DNA of 64,000 bases. Origin: Planctomycetota bacterium. Its GTDB lineage: Bacteria > Planctomycetota > UBA1135 > GCA-002686595. Positions 26,267 to 32,873 of this stretch are shown here, one piece after another. Position 1 is the first letter of the stretch, and every line of letters begins with the position of its first letter. Under the pieces are notes generated by a model. That model made no database searches, had not been told where the DNA came from, and worked only from the letters and a program-made list of their open reading frames with translations. Both the position numbers and the translations under genes were made by a program. Where the stretch lies: contig SMVQ01000066.1 of NCBI GenBank assembly GCA_004357655.1, positions 1 to 64,000 of the forward strand. Reading direction: 5' to 3'.

Positions 26267-29200
26267 TCAGACCTGGACCGCCGCCTCGCGGTCAGACCCG
26301 TCCTCGCGCTCCCGCGCAGAACCGGCCTCCGCGCGTGCCGGCTGGAGCTCCACGACGGGCTCTCCTGACTCGGGGTCGATGCTCTCCGAGGACGTTGGGG
26401 CCTCGCCGGCGTCCTCGCCGGCTTCCTCGTCCTCGTCCTCGGCCTCGGGCGTAGCGGCAGCGCCGGCGGCGGCGGCTTCCTCGCGCTGGCGCGCACCGCC
26501 GTTCACTTCCGGCACGAACTCCTCCACGTCGTCGAGCTCGACCATCACGAAGCGCGACACGCCCTTCACCTCCATCGTGATGCCGAAGAGCGCCTCGCAG
26601 ACCGCCATCGTGCCTTTGTTGTGCGTCACGACGATGAACTGCGTGTCCGCACGGAAACCGTCGAGCATGCCGATGAAGCGCTCGATGTTTGCGTCGTCCA
26701 GCGCCGCGTCCACTTCGTCGAGCACGCAGAACGGGCTCGGTCGCGCCTCGAACACGGCGAACAGGAGTGCCAGAGCGGTCATGGTGCGCTGACCGCCGGA
26801 CAAGAGACCGATCGGGAGCAACTCGCGGCCCGGCGGGCGCGCGACGATCTCGATGCCGGCCTCGAGGATGTCCACACCCTCCTCCAGTCGGACATCGGCC
26901 CGGCCGCCGCCGAAGAGCTGCCGGAAGACGCGCTGGAAGTTCGCGCGAACCTCTTCGAAGGTCTCGAGGAACAGGCGCCGACTCTCCTCGTCCATGCGCT
27001 GGATCGTCTCGGCCAGCGTCTTCCGCGCCTTCGCCAGATCGCCGGACTGGGTCTCCAGGAACTCGAGGCGACCGCCGACCTCCTCCAACTCCTCGACAGC
27101 GTCCATGTTGACCGGACCGAGGCGGTCGAGCTGAGCCTTCAGCTCGGAGACGGTCCGATCGAGCGCTTCCAGCGCGGACTCCTCGGCGAGTTCGGGCTCG
27201 GGCTCGAACTCGGCGCGGAGGTCACCCAGGCCGAGCGCGAGGTCCTCCTCGGAGCGCTTGAGCACGTCTTCGCGCGCGAGCTCCAGGCGCTGCACCAGCA
27301 GCTTCCGGTCGGACAGGCGGTCATTGTCGGCGTCGAGCTTCGTCTGCACCACCTCCGCCTTCTGCCGCACCGCCTCGATGCGCTCGCGACCGCTGCGCTC
27401 GAATGCGCGCAGCTCCTCCAGGTGCTCGTCGATGGTTCCGCGCTCTTCCAGGAGCTCCATGGCATGGACCGCGATCTCCTCGCACTCCCCGGCGCCCTGT
27501 CGCGCGTTCTCCGTGTAGTTCCGGGAACGCGTCTCGGAGCGCTCGATCTCCGCGGCGCCTTCCTCCATGCGTTGCCGGTGAATCTCGATCCGGTCGAGCG
27601 TCGCGTCGAGCTCCCCGCTCCGCGCCGTCCGTTCGACCTGCGCCTCGTTCGCCTCGCGACCGAGCAAGTCACGTTGCTCCTCCAGCCCGTGCCGCCCGGC
27701 CTCCATGGCACTGAGACGCGCGTTCTCGCGCTCGAACGCGGCTTCGCGCTCCGTGCGCTGGTCGAGCGCCTCCGCGAGCTCCCGCTCGAGGTGCTGTTGT
27801 TCCTCCTCGGCCCGCTCGGCCTCCTGCGCGACGAGGTCGCGCGACGCGCGCAGGTCCCCCAGGCGCGCCTCGAACGTGTGGAGCTCCGCCCGCGCCTCGG
27901 CGAGCGCCGACCGACACTGCTCGCGGGCCTCATCGGCCGCGGCGACCTGCGCGGCGACCGCCGTGCGGTCGTGACCGAGTACGGCCAGGCGCTCCTCGAG
28001 CGCGGCGATGGCCGCGTCCGCCGCGCGGACATCGGTCTCCAGGTCGGCCGCGGTCGAGCGTCGCCCGATCGCACCCTGGGTCACTTCGCGGTGACCGCCG
28101 ACGATGCCCGTCGCATCGACGAGCTCGCCCTCGGGTGTCACGAACGCGAAGCGCGGGTGCTGCGCAACGAGCGCGAGCGCGACGTCAAGGTCGGCGACGA
28201 CGATGACGCTGCCGAGCAGCGCGTCCACGACGGCCCGCATCTCGGGCTCGCACTCGACGAGCTCGGACAGCCGTCCGAGCGCGCCGGGACCGAGCTCCGG
28301 GAGCTGCGCGAGCTCGGTCCGGCCGAGGCCTTCCGGCACGACGATGCCCGCCTGACCTTCGGAACGCCCGGCGAGCCAGGCGGCGATCCCGCGCGCGCTC
28401 GCCGCGTCGGTCGTCACGAGTGCGACGGCGCGGTCAGCGAGGGCCGCGTCGAGCGCGCGCGCGAACCGCGTGTCGACCCTGAGGTGATCGGCGACGAGGC
28501 CGCGCAGGCATTCGGGCGAGCACGGTCCGTCCGCGCTCCCCGCCGCCGCGAGCACACAGCGCGCGCCGGCCGCCAGGTCTTCGAGCTCGCGCTCGCGGTC
28601 GAGCAGGGATTCGATCCGGCTCTGCAGCCGCGCGCGGTCGAGCTCGCGTTCGGCCTTGGCACGCTTCGCGGTCTCGAGCTCCGCATCGACCACGGCCAGG
28701 CCCGCCACGTGTTCCCGGCGCTCCGATTCGCAGGACTCCAGCGCGCCCTCCGCCGAGCCCACGCCGGACCGCGCGGCGTCGGCCGTGCCGACGATCTCAG
28801 CCAGCGACCCGTCGAGCCCGGCGAGCCGCGCCGCTACGCGCTCGTGCCGCTCGGCCATCGGTGAGCGCGAGTCCGCGAGGTGATGCGCCCGGTTCTGGCC
28901 CTCCGTGCGCTCGTGCAGTCGCTCGAGCAGGAGATCGTTCTGGGCCTGGACTTCCACGCGAACCGTCTTGTAGCGGGCGTTGAGCTCACGCAGCCGGTCG
29001 GCGAGCTCCTTCGCGCGGGCCTCGGCGCCCTGCGCCGCCTCCCGCAGCACATCCGCCTCCGCGTGCATCGTCTCCAGCTCACCCTGGCGTTCCGTGAGCT
29101 GCGCGCCCAGGGTATCGGCGCGTTCAGCCTCCTCGGTCGCCGACGCCTCCCACGAGGCGACTCGCAGCGCGAGCTGACTTTTCCGCTCGTCCATCGCGCG

Positions 29201-30094
29201 GATCTCGCCCGAGACCCGTCCGGCATCCGTCGAGACGCGATCGAGCTCGGCCACGACGGTCGCGCGCTCCTCTTCACTCTCCTGCACGTCGCGGTCGCAT
29301 CCAGCGCGATCCTCGCGCAATGCCGCGAGCAGCACCTCCAGCTCGCGGACCTCGGGCGCCGCCTCATCGAGCGCGCAATCCACCGTGAACAGCCTGTGCT
29401 TGAAGAATCGTGCCCTCTGCGTGGTCCACTCCGCTCTCGCTTCGACGTAGCGCTCGGCACGGCCGGCCTGGATCTTGAGGGAGCGTACGCGCGTACGCAG
29501 CTCGCCGACCACGTCGTCGAGGCGCGTCATGTCGGACTCGACGCGCTTCAGGCGCAGATCGGTCTCGTGCCGGCGCTGGCGATAGCGGCTGATGCCGGCC
29601 GCTTCCTCGAAGATCGCGCGGCGCTGGACGGGGTTCGCCGACAGCACGGCATCGATCTTGCCCTGCTCGAGGACGGAGTACCCGCGGCTGCCGAGGCCGG
29701 TGTCGAACAGCATCTCGCGGACGTCCTTCAGGCGCACGCGCTCCCCATCGAGCAGGTACTCGCCCTCGCCCGTCTTGAACAGACGCCGCGTGACGGACAC
29801 CTCGGCCCCGCGACCCTCGAGCAGGTCATCGGAGTTGTCGAGTACGAGCGTGACCTCCGCCACCGAGAGCGCCGGCCGGCTCGCCGAACCCTTGAAGATG
29901 ACGTCCGTCATCCCCACGCCGCGCATCGACGTGGGACGCGTCTCCCCCAGCACCCACCGGATGGAGTCGACGACGTTGCTCTTGCCGCAGCCGTTCGGAC
30001 CGACGATGCCGGTCAACGTGTTCTGTGCAAAGTCGAGGACCGTCCGATCGGCGAAGGACTTGAAGCCGAAGAGCTCGATTCGTTTCAGGCGCAT
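26267..30094 (-). CDS. smc: Chromosome segregation protein SMC
   Basis: A 1275-residue SMC ATPase. The N-terminal Walker A GPNGCGKSNVVDSIRW starts at residue 32. Long coiled coils flank a hinge at about residues 520-680 (including a VDATGIVGGHREV block). The C-terminal head has the signature LLSGGQRTMTALALLFAV and Walker B FCVLDEVDAALDD. It forms the condensin core with ScpA and ScpB, neither of which is nearby. The protein is longer than the usual 1180 residues because of an acidic, Ala/Glu-rich tail after the Walker B region. It lies 71 bp downstream of the ATP-cone gene on the same strand and converges with the EF-hand gene. Confidence 0.96.
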   Translation of the reverse strand: MRLKRIELFGFKSFADRTVLDFAQNTLTGIVGPNGCGKSNVVDSIRWVLGETRPTSMRGVGMTDVIFKGSASRPALSVAEVTLVLDNSDDLLEGRGAEVSVTRRLFKTGEGEYLLDGERVRLKDVREMLFDTGLGSRGYSVLEQGKIDAVLSANPVQRRAIFEEAAGISRYRQRRHETDLRLKRVESDMTRLDDVVGELRTRVRSLKIQAGRAERYVEARAEWTTQRARFFKHRLFTVDCALDEAAPEVRELEVLLAALREDRAGCDRDVQESEEERATVVAELDRVSTDAGRVSGEIRAMDERKSQLALRVASWEASATEEAERADTLGAQLTERQGELETMHAEADVLREAAQGAEARAKELADRLRELNARYKTVRVEVQAQNDLLLERLHERTEGQNRAHHLADSRSPMAERHERVAARLAGLDGSLAEIVGTADAARSGVGSAEGALESCESERREHVAGLAVVDAELETAKRAKAERELDRARLQSRIESLLDRERELEDLAAGARCVLAAAGSADGPCSPECLRGLVADHLRVDTRFARALDAALADRAVALVTTDAASARGIAAWLAGRSEGQAGIVVPEGLGRTELAQLPELGPGALGRLSELVECEPEMRAVVDALLGSVIVVADLDVALALVAQHPRFAFVTPEGELVDATGIVGGHREVTQGAIGRRSTAADLETDVRAADAAIAALEERLAVLGHDRTAVAAQVAAADEAREQCRSALAEARAELHTFEARLGDLRASRDLVAQEAERAEEEQQHLERELAEALDQRTEREAAFERENARLSAMEAGRHGLEEQRDLLGREANEAQVERTARSGELDATLDRIEIHRQRMEEGAAEIERSETRSRNYTENARQGAGECEEIAVHAMELLEERGTIDEHLEELRAFERSGRERIEAVRQKAEVVQTKLDADNDRLSDRKLLVQRLELAREDVLKRSEEDLALGLGDLRAEFEPEPELAEESALEALDRTVSELKAQLDRLGPVNMDAVEELEEVGGRLEFLETQSGDLAKARKTLAETIQRMDEESRRLFLETFEEVRANFQRVFRQLFGGGRADVRLEEGVDILEAGIEIVARPPGRELLPIGLLSGGQRTMTALALLFAVFEARPSPFCVLDEVDAALDDANIERFIGMLDGFRADTQFIVVTHNKGTMAVCEALFGITMEVKGVSRFVMVELDDVEEFVPEVNGGARQREEAAAAGAAATPEAEDEDEEAGEDAGEAPTSSESIDPESGEPVVELQPARAEAGSAREREDGSDREAAVQV

Positions 30095-30165: not shown

Positions 30166-32313
30166 TCACGAGCGGCCGGCGAAGAGGGATCCGGGGCGCG
30201 CGGAGAACGGGTGCGGAGCGGCGTCCTGTCGTGGCGCACGAAGCTCGGCGAACCGCTCCCACGCGGCGATGGCTGGGTGGGCGTCGTCGAGCGCGGCGGA
30301 GGACAGCACCGGCTTCACGCGCGGGGACCATGGGAAGAGCGCGCCGGACCGCAAGGTCGCGAGCAGCTTCGCCTCCGCTTCGCCCGGCGCGCCGAGCGAG
30401 CGCGGGAGCAGGTAGCCGGACGTGTAGACCGCTTCGCGCTCGTCCTCGGGCGCGGGCAGGCCCTCGAAGAGCCGCGCCTGGAACGCCCGGGGCTGCTTCG
30501 CATCGATTGCGGCGAAGCGGGCCCGCGCGCGTGCGCCGAACATCGGAGAGAGGACGACGGACAGCCCGCGCTCGCTGGCGAAGCGTCCCGCGGCCTCGGA
30601 GAAGAGACCGAGGAGGCGCGCTCCAAGGTCCGGCGACAACTCACCGTCACCGAGGATGCGCAGGCACTCGCACAGGCCGACGGGCGTGAGCGCGAAGACA
30701 CGGCGCTCGCGCAGGGTCTCGCCGTGTGCCCCGCGAACTTCGCGTTGGAAGGCCTCCAGGCGCTCGAGGGCGTCGAGCGAGGCCTCGACCATGGCCGCGA
30801 GTGCCTCGTAGGCGAGGTCTTCGCGCCACGGCCCCGCGCGCCGCGCGATTCGCGGTAGGTTGACGGCGACCGCCCCGGCGCAGGCGAGCGCCACCTTTTC
30901 GCGACCACGGCGGCGGCAGCCGGGGGCGACCCAGCGCTCGTCGCCCGAGTGCCAGACCGGGACGAGGCGGCCCGAGCGCAAGAGGGACTCCGCGGCGTCG
31001 CGGGCGGCGGGATCCTCGTCGAGCGCGGGGAGCACCTCCTGCCAGGCCAGGAACAGCCGCGGGGCGGGGGCGCCTTCGGTGCAGAGGATGGCGAGCTCCA
31101 CCAGCACCCGGGCGAGGAGCGCGGGCGAACGCCCGCCGGGGTCGCTGAGGTCGATGCTGCGACCCGCCGCCCGCCCCAGGGCGCCCAGGGCGCGAAGGAA
31201 GTCAGCGAGATGCGCGCTGCCACGCGGGCCGCGCGATAGCGGGTGCAGCACGCGGCTCGCATCCTCGAGGACCAGGCCGAACGCCGTCTCGCGCACGAGC
31301 GGAGCGAGTTCCGAGAAGAGCTCGAACGCCGAGTGCGCCGAGACCTCACGGCGCAGGAGCAAGTCCGCCTGAACCGAACGCGTGAGCACGAGGTGCGGCC
31401 GTGTCACGTCCTCGAAGTAGAGGTCGCCGGAGCGGTGCATGTCGGCGACGCGCTCGTCGAATACGTCCTCGAGCGCGTATCGGGAGAGGATCTCGGACGC
31501 CACGCAACCGGCGACATCAGCGACACTCTGGACGCCGACGCCGCAAACACTCCCCGAGCTCCCCGGGAGGTAGTCGATGCTCGCGTCGAGAACCTGCCGC
31601 GCCGGCGGGCCGAACAGGCGACGGAGGTCGTGGCGCGGAAGGCTGACGGGTTCCTGCTGGAGCAACGCGTGCCGCAAGCCCATGGAGAAGAGCTCGTTGT
31701 CGACGAGCTCGCGCAGGAGCGACGTGGTCAGGCGCCTGAGGCCCGAGTCGAAGACGCGATGCTCGACGCGCGCGGCGACGTCTTCGGCCACGTTCTGCGC
31801 CAGGTCGGCCTCCTCCATCAACGCGGCGACGATGCGCCCGCGACTCCACGGTGACGCTCCGCTCGAGTCGCGCACGATCGGTCCCTTGAACTCGGTGTCC
31901 GCGCGCGGCATCCCGGCGTGGACGCTCAGTGCCTCGCGCGACCGCGCGCGTCGGTCGCGATACAGGATGAACGCCTTCGCGACACGCGCGCGGCCCATCT
32001 CGATCAGTGCCTGCTCGACGAGGTCCTGGATCTCCTCGATGCCCGGGACCGAGGGCTCGGGCGGTCGGCCCTCGCCATCCCAGCCCTCGAGCCGCCCGTG
32101 GCGGACAGCGAGGGTGAGCGTCACGACATCGGCGACCTCCGACGCGAACAGGGGGTCGTCGTCGCTCACCGCGGACTGGGCGCGGGACACGGCATCGGCG
32201 ATCCGCGTGGCGTCGTACTCGAGCTCCCGACCGTCACGCTTCCGGACGCGGCGGACGGGGACAGGGCGCGGCGCGAGGGTCCGCTCCGGGCGATCGGGCT
32301 CACGGGAGCTCAT
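30166..32313 (-). CDS. ATP-cone protein with truncated, inactive-looking NrdD-like domain
   Basis: A 715-residue protein. Residues about 20-115 are an ATP-cone (VRKRDGRELEYDATRIADAV, then IEEIQDLVEQALIEMGRARV and ILYRDRRA). The rest follows the class III ribonucleotide reductase NrdD fold in order: SRYALEDVFDERVADMHRSGDLYFED (the loading region), AVAVNLPRIARRAG (tvNLPRIA block), and YTSGYLLP (YTNS..lP block). It then ends within about 85 residues. The zinc-binding Cys pairs and the glycyl-radical RVCGY-type motif of true NrdD are absent, so reductase activity is not expected. The start overlaps the nrdR stop by 1 nt. An allosteric or regulatory role in nucleotide sensing is inference. Confidence 0.7.
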   Translation of the reverse strand: MSSREPDRPERTLAPRPVPVRRVRKRDGRELEYDATRIADAVSRAQSAVSDDDPLFASEVADVVTLTLAVRHGRLEGWDGEGRPPEPSVPGIEEIQDLVEQALIEMGRARVAKAFILYRDRRARSREALSVHAGMPRADTEFKGPIVRDSSGASPWSRGRIVAALMEEADLAQNVAEDVAARVEHRVFDSGLRRLTTSLLRELVDNELFSMGLRHALLQQEPVSLPRHDLRRLFGPPARQVLDASIDYLPGSSGSVCGVGVQSVADVAGCVASEILSRYALEDVFDERVADMHRSGDLYFEDVTRPHLVLTRSVQADLLLRREVSAHSAFELFSELAPLVRETAFGLVLEDASRVLHPLSRGPRGSAHLADFLRALGALGRAAGRSIDLSDPGGRSPALLARVLVELAILCTEGAPAPRLFLAWQEVLPALDEDPAARDAAESLLRSGRLVPVWHSGDERWVAPGCRRRGREKVALACAGAVAVNLPRIARRAGPWREDLAYEALAAMVEASLDALERLEAFQREVRGAHGETLRERRVFALTPVGLCECLRILGDGELSPDLGARLLGLFSEAAGRFASERGLSVVLSPMFGARARARFAAIDAKQPRAFQARLFEGLPAPEDEREAVYTSGYLLPRSLGAPGEAEAKLLATLRSGALFPWSPRVKPVLSSAALDDAHPAIAAWERFAELRAPRQDAAPHPFSARPGSLFAGRS

Positions 32314-32822
32314 CAGCCGCTCTCCCCGCTCTCACGGTCCGCCTTGGCCTGGAGCTTGGCTTCGGCCTCCCGCTTGTCGAGGAGCGGCTTCAGCTCGTCC
32401 AGGAACTGGTTCACGTCCTTGAACTCCCGGTACACGCTGGCGAAACGCACGTACGCGACCTGGTTCATGGTGCGCAGCTCGTCCATGACGAGGGAGCCGA
32501 TGACCGCGCTCGGAACCTCGCGGTCGTAGTCCCCCTGGCACTTCGCCTCGACGCGCGCGGCGGAATCCTCGATCGCTTTCATCGGGACCGGGAGCTTCTC
32601 GCACGCCCGCATCATGCCCTCGAGCACCCGCTCGCGATCGAAGCGAACCCGCTCGCCGCTCTTCTTGATCACGCGTAGCGGCGTCTCCTCGATGCGTTCG
32701 TAGGTCGTGAAGCGCATGAAACACTGGAGACACTCCCGGCGCCTCCGGATGACGTTGCCGTCAGCGGACGTACGCGAATCGACGACGCGATCGTCGTCTT
32801 CACCGCATCGGGGGCACTTCAT
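32313..32822 (-). CDS. nrdR: Transcriptional repressor NrdR
   Basis: A 169-residue regulator with an N-terminal zinc ribbon (Cys 3, 6, 31, 34) and an ATP-cone at about residues 48-140 (LRVIKKSGERVRFDRERVLEGM to FASVYREF). NrdR senses ATP/dATP and represses ribonucleotide reductase genes through paired NrdR boxes. The C-terminus is slightly longer and charged. It is translationally coupled (1-nt overlap, TGATG) to a second ATP-cone protein. A promoter with an NrdR-box-like 16-mer lies just upstream, suggesting autoregulation of this pair. Confidence 0.95.
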   Translation of the reverse strand: MKCPRCGEDDDRVVDSRTSADGNVIRRRRECLQCFMRFTTYERIEETPLRVIKKSGERVRFDRERVLEGMMRACEKLPVPMKAIEDSAARVEAKCQGDYDREVPSAVIGSLVMDELRTMNQVAYVRFASVYREFKDVNQFLDELKPLLDKREAEAKLQAKADRESGESG

Positions 32823-32844: not shown

Positions 32845-32873
32845 AGAAGACCACGCTAGATGTTGTGTGTCAA
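32845..32873 (-). promoter_or_regulatory. Candidate nrdR promoter containing an NrdR-box-like site
   Basis: On the minus strand TTGACA (32873-32868) is followed after 17 nt by TCTTCT (32850-32845), 22 nt before the nrdR ATG. Overlapping the -35 and spacer, ACACAACATCTAGCGT (32868-32853) matches 13 of 16 positions of the E. coli-type NrdR box (ACACWATATATWGTGT). The -10 is weak. A second box at the usual spacing of about 31 bp is not clear; a CCCATATGGG palindrome lies at 32900-32909. Confidence 0.45.

Follow-up and report, generated by a model that had tools for sequence, protein, structure and literature searches.

A putatively dead, NrdD-derived protein with two ATP-cones encoded beside nrdR in Planctomycetota

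Domain architecture and catalytic parts of the nrdR-linked protein

NrdR is a Zn-ribbon and ATP-cone repressor of ribonucleotide reductase (RNR) genes. In the 64,000-nucleotide stretch of a Planctomycetota genome analysed here (the window), nrdR is directly followed by a gene whose product resembles the class III RNR NrdD, raising the question of what such a protein does in the operon of a repressor. nrdR (32313..32822, minus strand) encodes a 169-residue protein that contains both CxxC motifs of the Zn-ribbon and an ATP-cone (PF03477), and it scores above the family cut-off (TIGR00244, 190.9 bits against 124.65; PF22811, 71.7 bits). Its stop codon overlaps by 1 nt (TGATG) the start codon of the gene for the 715-residue NrdD-derived two-ATP-cone protein (30166..32313, minus strand); the next gene downstream, smc (26267..30094, minus strand; TIGR02168, 952 bits), is given for context only. 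Re-reading the sequence returned the same coordinates, lengths and overlap as a preliminary description of the locus, which had suggested a nucleotide sensor built from a dead reductase.

That description counted one ATP-cone. The cone itself stands, at residues ~20–128 (31930..32256, minus strand; PF03477, 66.7 bits, cut-off 25.8), and the count has to be raised by a second, divergent cone-like domain at residues ~153–222 (31648..31857, minus strand; NF008994, the 2-phosphoglycerate kinase cone, E 5.7e-5; pLDDT ~88–96). Cone 1 retains the motifs KRDG, IEEIQDxVE and AKAYILYR across the family, with K25, R26, D27, G28, Y118 and R119 conserved in at least 90% of a 38-member alignment. The KRDG hairpin, the usual nucleotide-binding motif of ATP-cones, is absent from cone 2. 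Together with the cone of NrdR, the operon thus encodes three ATP-cones.

The remainder of the protein is a degenerate NrdD α/β barrel core (residues ~267–640; 30394..31515, minus strand). Structure prediction, suggested in the preliminary description, bore out its claim of a retained NrdD-like core; in the HMM comparison, also suggested there, the NrdD family scores lie below cut-off, narrowly for PF13597 (25.0 bits against 26.2) and by far for the curated TIGR02487 (16.8 bits against 326.35). The AlphaFold2 model (66 sequences) reached a mean pLDDT of 87.5 and a pTM of 0.81, with pLDDT mostly above 90 in the core, and predicts that the RNR α/β barrel fold is present in reduced form. Foldseek placed the class III RNR 8p28_A at the top of the PDB matches (E 2.0e-13, probability 1.00, 13% identity), with TM values to class III RNRs of about 0.4–0.54, highest for T4 NrdD (1h7b); the modelled fold is not wholly independent of NrdDs because the AlphaFold2 alignment included intact ones. 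These best structural matches, the class III NrdDs (P. copri 8P28/8P23, T. maritima 4COJ, T4 1HK8), share with the 715-residue protein the order of ATP-cone followed by NrdD barrel. Its direct relatives are the intact double-cone NrdDs of Brocadia-like planctomycetes, which occupy the same position in the nrdR operon.

We compared the active sites of 38 family members with those of intact relatives (Brocadia-like NrdDs of 808–817 residues, ten of them at the β-A cysteine). Unlike class III NrdD, the family lacks the β-A cysteine, the zinc site, the glycyl-radical loop and ~100 barrel residues, and its finger-loop cysteine is variable. The β-A cysteine (Cys171 in P. copri) is present in 10/10 intact relatives, and V, T, W, S, A and E are among the residues listed for the 38. 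Nearly all of these miss the barrel stretch N309–Q365 in the numbering of an active relative (L012), with alignment gaps at N309 in 35/38 and at S361 and Q365 in all 38. No zinc cysteines (two CxxC) align in any of the 38, and the glycyl-radical loop (RxVGY/RxCGY) is absent from every one. The finger-loop cysteine occurs as PGC in 24/38, with L, V, S, A or G in the other 14; the finger loop of active class III RNRs normally reads MGCR or MCCR (PMC9669993), and that of the 715-residue protein reads PGCRR. In the 715-residue protein, the family alignment places this remnant and the next motif at residues 464–498 (APGCRRR...NLPRIARRAGPWRE; 30820..30924, minus strand). NLPR is mostly retained (N in 34/38), as are the AGxWRE stretch and G546/G557.

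Having lost the β-A cysteine, the barrel stretch, the zinc cysteines and the radical glycine, the protein, as judged from its sequence, cannot act as a class III reductase in the known form. The protein had been called truncated, and it does stop before the zinc and glycyl-radical motifs; that term misses the loss of the β-A cysteine and of the internal barrel stretch. Nor is the missing glycyl motif supplied from elsewhere: a detached glycyl-radical domain was found neither in 61 related genomes nor, by profile search, in the own genome or the listed family members; a longer version of the query does detect detached domains elsewhere in the phylum. Six genomes from the family and order yielded no NrdG match above cut-off, a result that is not strong evidence because TIGR02491 stayed under cut-off in every genome tested, even those with intact NrdD. 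These comparisons indicate that the protein belongs to an NrdD-derived family of predicted pseudoenzymes, distinct from functional NrdD. Searches of open-access papers, covering RNR pseudoenzymes and standalone ATP-cones as well as NrdR and NrdD, yielded no description of such an NrdR-linked dead NrdD.

Selection and distribution across the phylum

Among four close relatives, NG86 dN/dS was 0.00–0.19 in the cones and 0.07–0.23 in the two halves of the core, so that low values extend over ~650 codons; the last ~45 codons are near neutral (0.5–1.4) and serve as an internal control. Columns at least 80% conserved among the 38 members comprise 42/109 in cone 1, 28/70 in cone 2 and 59/374 in residues 267–640, which marks the cones as the most conserved part of the aligned sequences. 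Since the core is still under purifying selection, it presumably does something beyond carrying the cones.

The layout is not peculiar to the window's genome. The family profile matched 34/37 sampled genomes of its GTDB family, and the linkage to nrdR is fixed: in 33/33 nrdR-bearing family genomes, with nrdR found by an ATP-cone search, the gene shares a contig with nrdR and sits immediately downstream of it. Where the gene is absent or only a fragment (G010, G019, G025 and G027), nrdR is likewise missing from the assembly. A survey of nrdR neighbours, another suggestion of the preliminary description, showed this arrangement to be standard within the family and frequent across the phylum: among 149 Planctomycetota genomes, 136 contained nrdR over cut-off, and at least 80 of these carry a two-cone protein directly downstream. 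This count is a lower bound because the diverged loci L171, L175 and L176 fell under the profile threshold of the first survey.

The open frames of these 80 proteins vary widely, with 26 of at least 780 residues, 37 of 600–779, 12 of 440–599, three of 300–439 and two below 300, some of the short ones being cut by contig ends. Intact NrdDs (RIVGY, zinc site, CCRLR) occur beside nrdR mainly in Brocadia-like families. Some lineages encode two cones and nothing else (L107, 208 residues; L151, about 190), and family f6 has a single-cone protein of 135–154 residues after nrdR (L078, L079, L156 and L157). Read from these sequences, the proteins appear as a graded series, from intact NrdD through an NrdD with a Gly-to-Asp replacement and degenerate cores to two-cone and one-cone proteins, and in the shortened genes it is the barrel that disappears and the cones that persist. 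We do not state the number of independent losses because the tree, built on the cones and early core, is arbitrarily rooted and weak at many nodes. The Gly-to-Asp form was seen at two loci (L109 and L143, in G119 and G185) as a near full-length NrdD beside nrdR that keeps the zinc site and in which RIVGY has become RIADY; it is an apparent intermediate in the loss of catalysis, and both genomes hold another RNR. The association with nrdR loosens elsewhere, two-cone proteins being kept without a detectable nrdR in families f34 and f60 and the gene having moved away from nrdR in family f30. The proteins with two tandem full ATP-cones in f60/f34 genomes where nrdR was not detected (L195:726-1340(+), L191:742-2403(+) and L192:473-1648(+)) include a 205-residue cone-only protein and longer ones.

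Other RNRs are available throughout. The own genome encodes a class I NrdA (TIGR02506, 580.9 bits, cut by the contig end) and a class II NrdJ (TIGR02504, 681.2 bits) in which Pfam finds no ATP-cone. Class I/II RNRs were found in 61/61 relatives, and another RNR (I and/or II) in 37/37 sampled family members: a class I NrdA that carries a cone of its own is present in 17, about 20 have class II only, and in G016 and G029 NrdA is the sole RNR. The catalytic losses, the kept fold, purifying selection, this other RNR in every sampled member and the graded series together lend good support to the dead-reductase reading put forward in the preliminary description. The putatively dead NrdD is retained under class II-only and class I-only settings alike; what accompanies it throughout is NrdR and not any one RNR, which favours NrdR as the shared partner. 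As an exclusive partner, NrdA is rejected by the ~20/37 family genomes without it, and NrdJ is weakened as a candidate by G016 and G029, which have only NrdA.

Candidate roles: NrdR, housekeeping reductases and alternatives

A conserved NrdR-box-like site (ACACAACATCTAGCGT; 32853..32868, minus strand) lies 46 nt upstream of nrdR. Matches of at least 14/16 to the box within 160 bp upstream of nrdR were found at 21/30 family loci, compared with 0.03% of shuffled sequences, using a consensus that had been loosened after these very sites were inspected. NrdR sites described so far come in pairs spaced by about three helix turns; upstream of nrdR there is one strong box only, with no second box evident at the usual 31–32 bp spacing. 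A weak NrdR-box-like pair, 31 bp apart, was observed upstream of the own nrdA (L037:5313-5359; sites 5313 and 5344). Across 87 pairs, the distances of NrdR and of the cones correlate at r = 0.50 against a permutation maximum of 0.15; inside the family the corresponding values are 0.40 and 0.32, as co-inheritance would lead one to expect.

We consider it a credible prospect, just short of an even chance, that the 715-residue protein has no catalytic activity and works in trans as an ATP/dATP sensor, being expressed together with NrdR and most likely acting on it. A sensing role suggests itself most strongly, as the cones show the highest conservation, survive longest and still reside in the nrdR operon. 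The comparisons show descent from a class III NrdD with two ATP-cones, one co-transcribed with nrdR in ancestral Planctomycetota; the reductase chemistry has been lost, and the protein persists in folded form under selection. The protein and NrdR would be made together from an NrdR-controlled promoter; cone 1 would bind ATP or dATP, and the nucleotide state could be relayed through cone-to-cone contacts. NrdR shares with the protein an ATP-cone and the operon and senses ATP/dATP with its cone, whereas the 715-residue protein has neither the Zn-ribbon nor a DNA-binding domain of its own. Higher NrdR oligomers, like its tetramers, are built through ATP-cone pairs. The tetramers that form in this way bind DNA, and NrdR requires specific combinations of ATP and dATP (PMC9110341, PMC12176259). 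From this use of cone pairs and from the conservation and persistence of the cones, we infer a protein that senses ATP/dATP and modulates NrdR, its likeliest partner, possibly as a co-repressor or an anti-repressor, with a housekeeping RNR as the less likely partner. The two-cone proteins of f34 and f60 and the displaced gene of f30 imply that NrdR is not the sole partner everywhere, and undetected nrdR in f34/f60 weakens NrdR as the partner in every lineage.

The protein could instead be a detached allosteric subunit of the housekeeping RNR, binding NrdJ or NrdA in trans and conferring dATP feedback, a role we hold to be conceivable but rather unlikely. It would matter most where the sole RNR is a class II enzyme without ATP-cone: in the about 20 of 37 family genomes with class II only, the ATP-cone proteins are essentially NrdR and the presumed dead NrdD, the own NrdJ has no Pfam cone, and pairing between a dead RNR relative and a live RNR is plausible. 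However, the gene adjoins nrdR and not nrdJ or nrdA, and its conservation is just as strong in G016 and G029, where a class I NrdA that has its own cone is the sole RNR. A new catalytic or ligand-binding role of the degenerate barrel, perhaps directed at a nucleotide and regulated by the cones, would account for purifying selection on the core, the confident fold and the retained NLPR, AGxWRE stretch and G546/G557; we judge it improbable, given that the finger-loop cysteine persists in only 24/38 members, the β-A cysteine is replaced and some lineages drop the core entirely yet keep the cones.

Two further readings carry very little weight. Other families of the phylum (f39, f45 and f68) have split NrdDs whose glycyl-radical part is a separate protein, and by analogy the 715-residue protein could be an active NrdD completed by such a domain in trans; this is highly improbable, as no candidate domain turned up in the 61 relatives or, when the profile was used, in the own genome and the family members listed, the β-A cysteine and a large barrel segment are gone too, and six family and order genomes gave no passing NrdG match. 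Its degenerate motifs and near-neutral tail might suggest a decaying pseudogene or an assembly artefact, to which we attach a negligible probability: the nrdR-bearing genomes of the family retain an open frame, and this, the low dN/dS over ~650 codons, the conservation and the confident fold lead us to reject both.

Returning to a sensor that modulates NrdR, the phylum-wide version of this proposal, in which an RNR of the nrdR operon became a nucleotide sensor acting in trans and its body eroded by lineage down to the ATP-cones, seems to us evenly balanced between right and wrong. If it holds, control by NrdR in Planctomycetota would rely on a dedicated partner and become a two-protein system across much of the phylum. 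In class I RNR, a cone carried by the radical-generating subunit shows that the ATP-cone is mobile and able to regulate RNR without belonging to the catalytic subunit (PMC5794259). That cone sits in a working RNR subunit, whereas here the cones are found on a putatively dead NrdD or alone beside nrdR, and a conserved NrdR-coupled dead RNR would give the ATP-cone domain a third location. The extant proteins, which range from a working enzyme to the regulatory domain alone, also make it possible to test which parts of an allosteric enzyme are dispensable when only sensing is kept.

Split NrdDs with separate glycyl-radical proteins

In families f39, f45 and f68, NrdD has the core and zinc region and no glycyl loop. 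A separate protein of 105–121 residues with its own N-terminal domain bears RVVGYFS...NWNKSK (general loop R[VI]VGY[FY]S..NWN.SK). These small proteins are encoded at L180:1494-1817(-), L181:1466-1780(-), L182:1277-1594(+), L183:1532-1852(-) and L184:1444-1806(-), and their NrdD partner loci are L140, L095, L124, L133 and L100. The split NrdD is probably the working RNR of such genomes, because several of them have no class I/II match. Modelled by itself with AlphaFold, the small protein gives a poor structure (pLDDT 65). Its profile matches 70/392 phylum genomes, some of these matches being the C-terminus of an intact NrdD.

In Brocadia-like genomes of family f49, the small protein is present besides an intact NrdD (G145:C1:1680119-1680427, G178:C1:218587-218889 and G268:C1:2569054-2569284). 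There it looks like a spare part of the kind represented by YfiD/GrcA, a small separate glycyl-radical-loop protein that serves pyruvate formate-lyase (PMC8683613), whereas the planctomycete protein matches the NrdD loop. In f39 (L124 and L140), an NrdG-like radical-SAM frame lies directly downstream of the glycyl-less NrdD.
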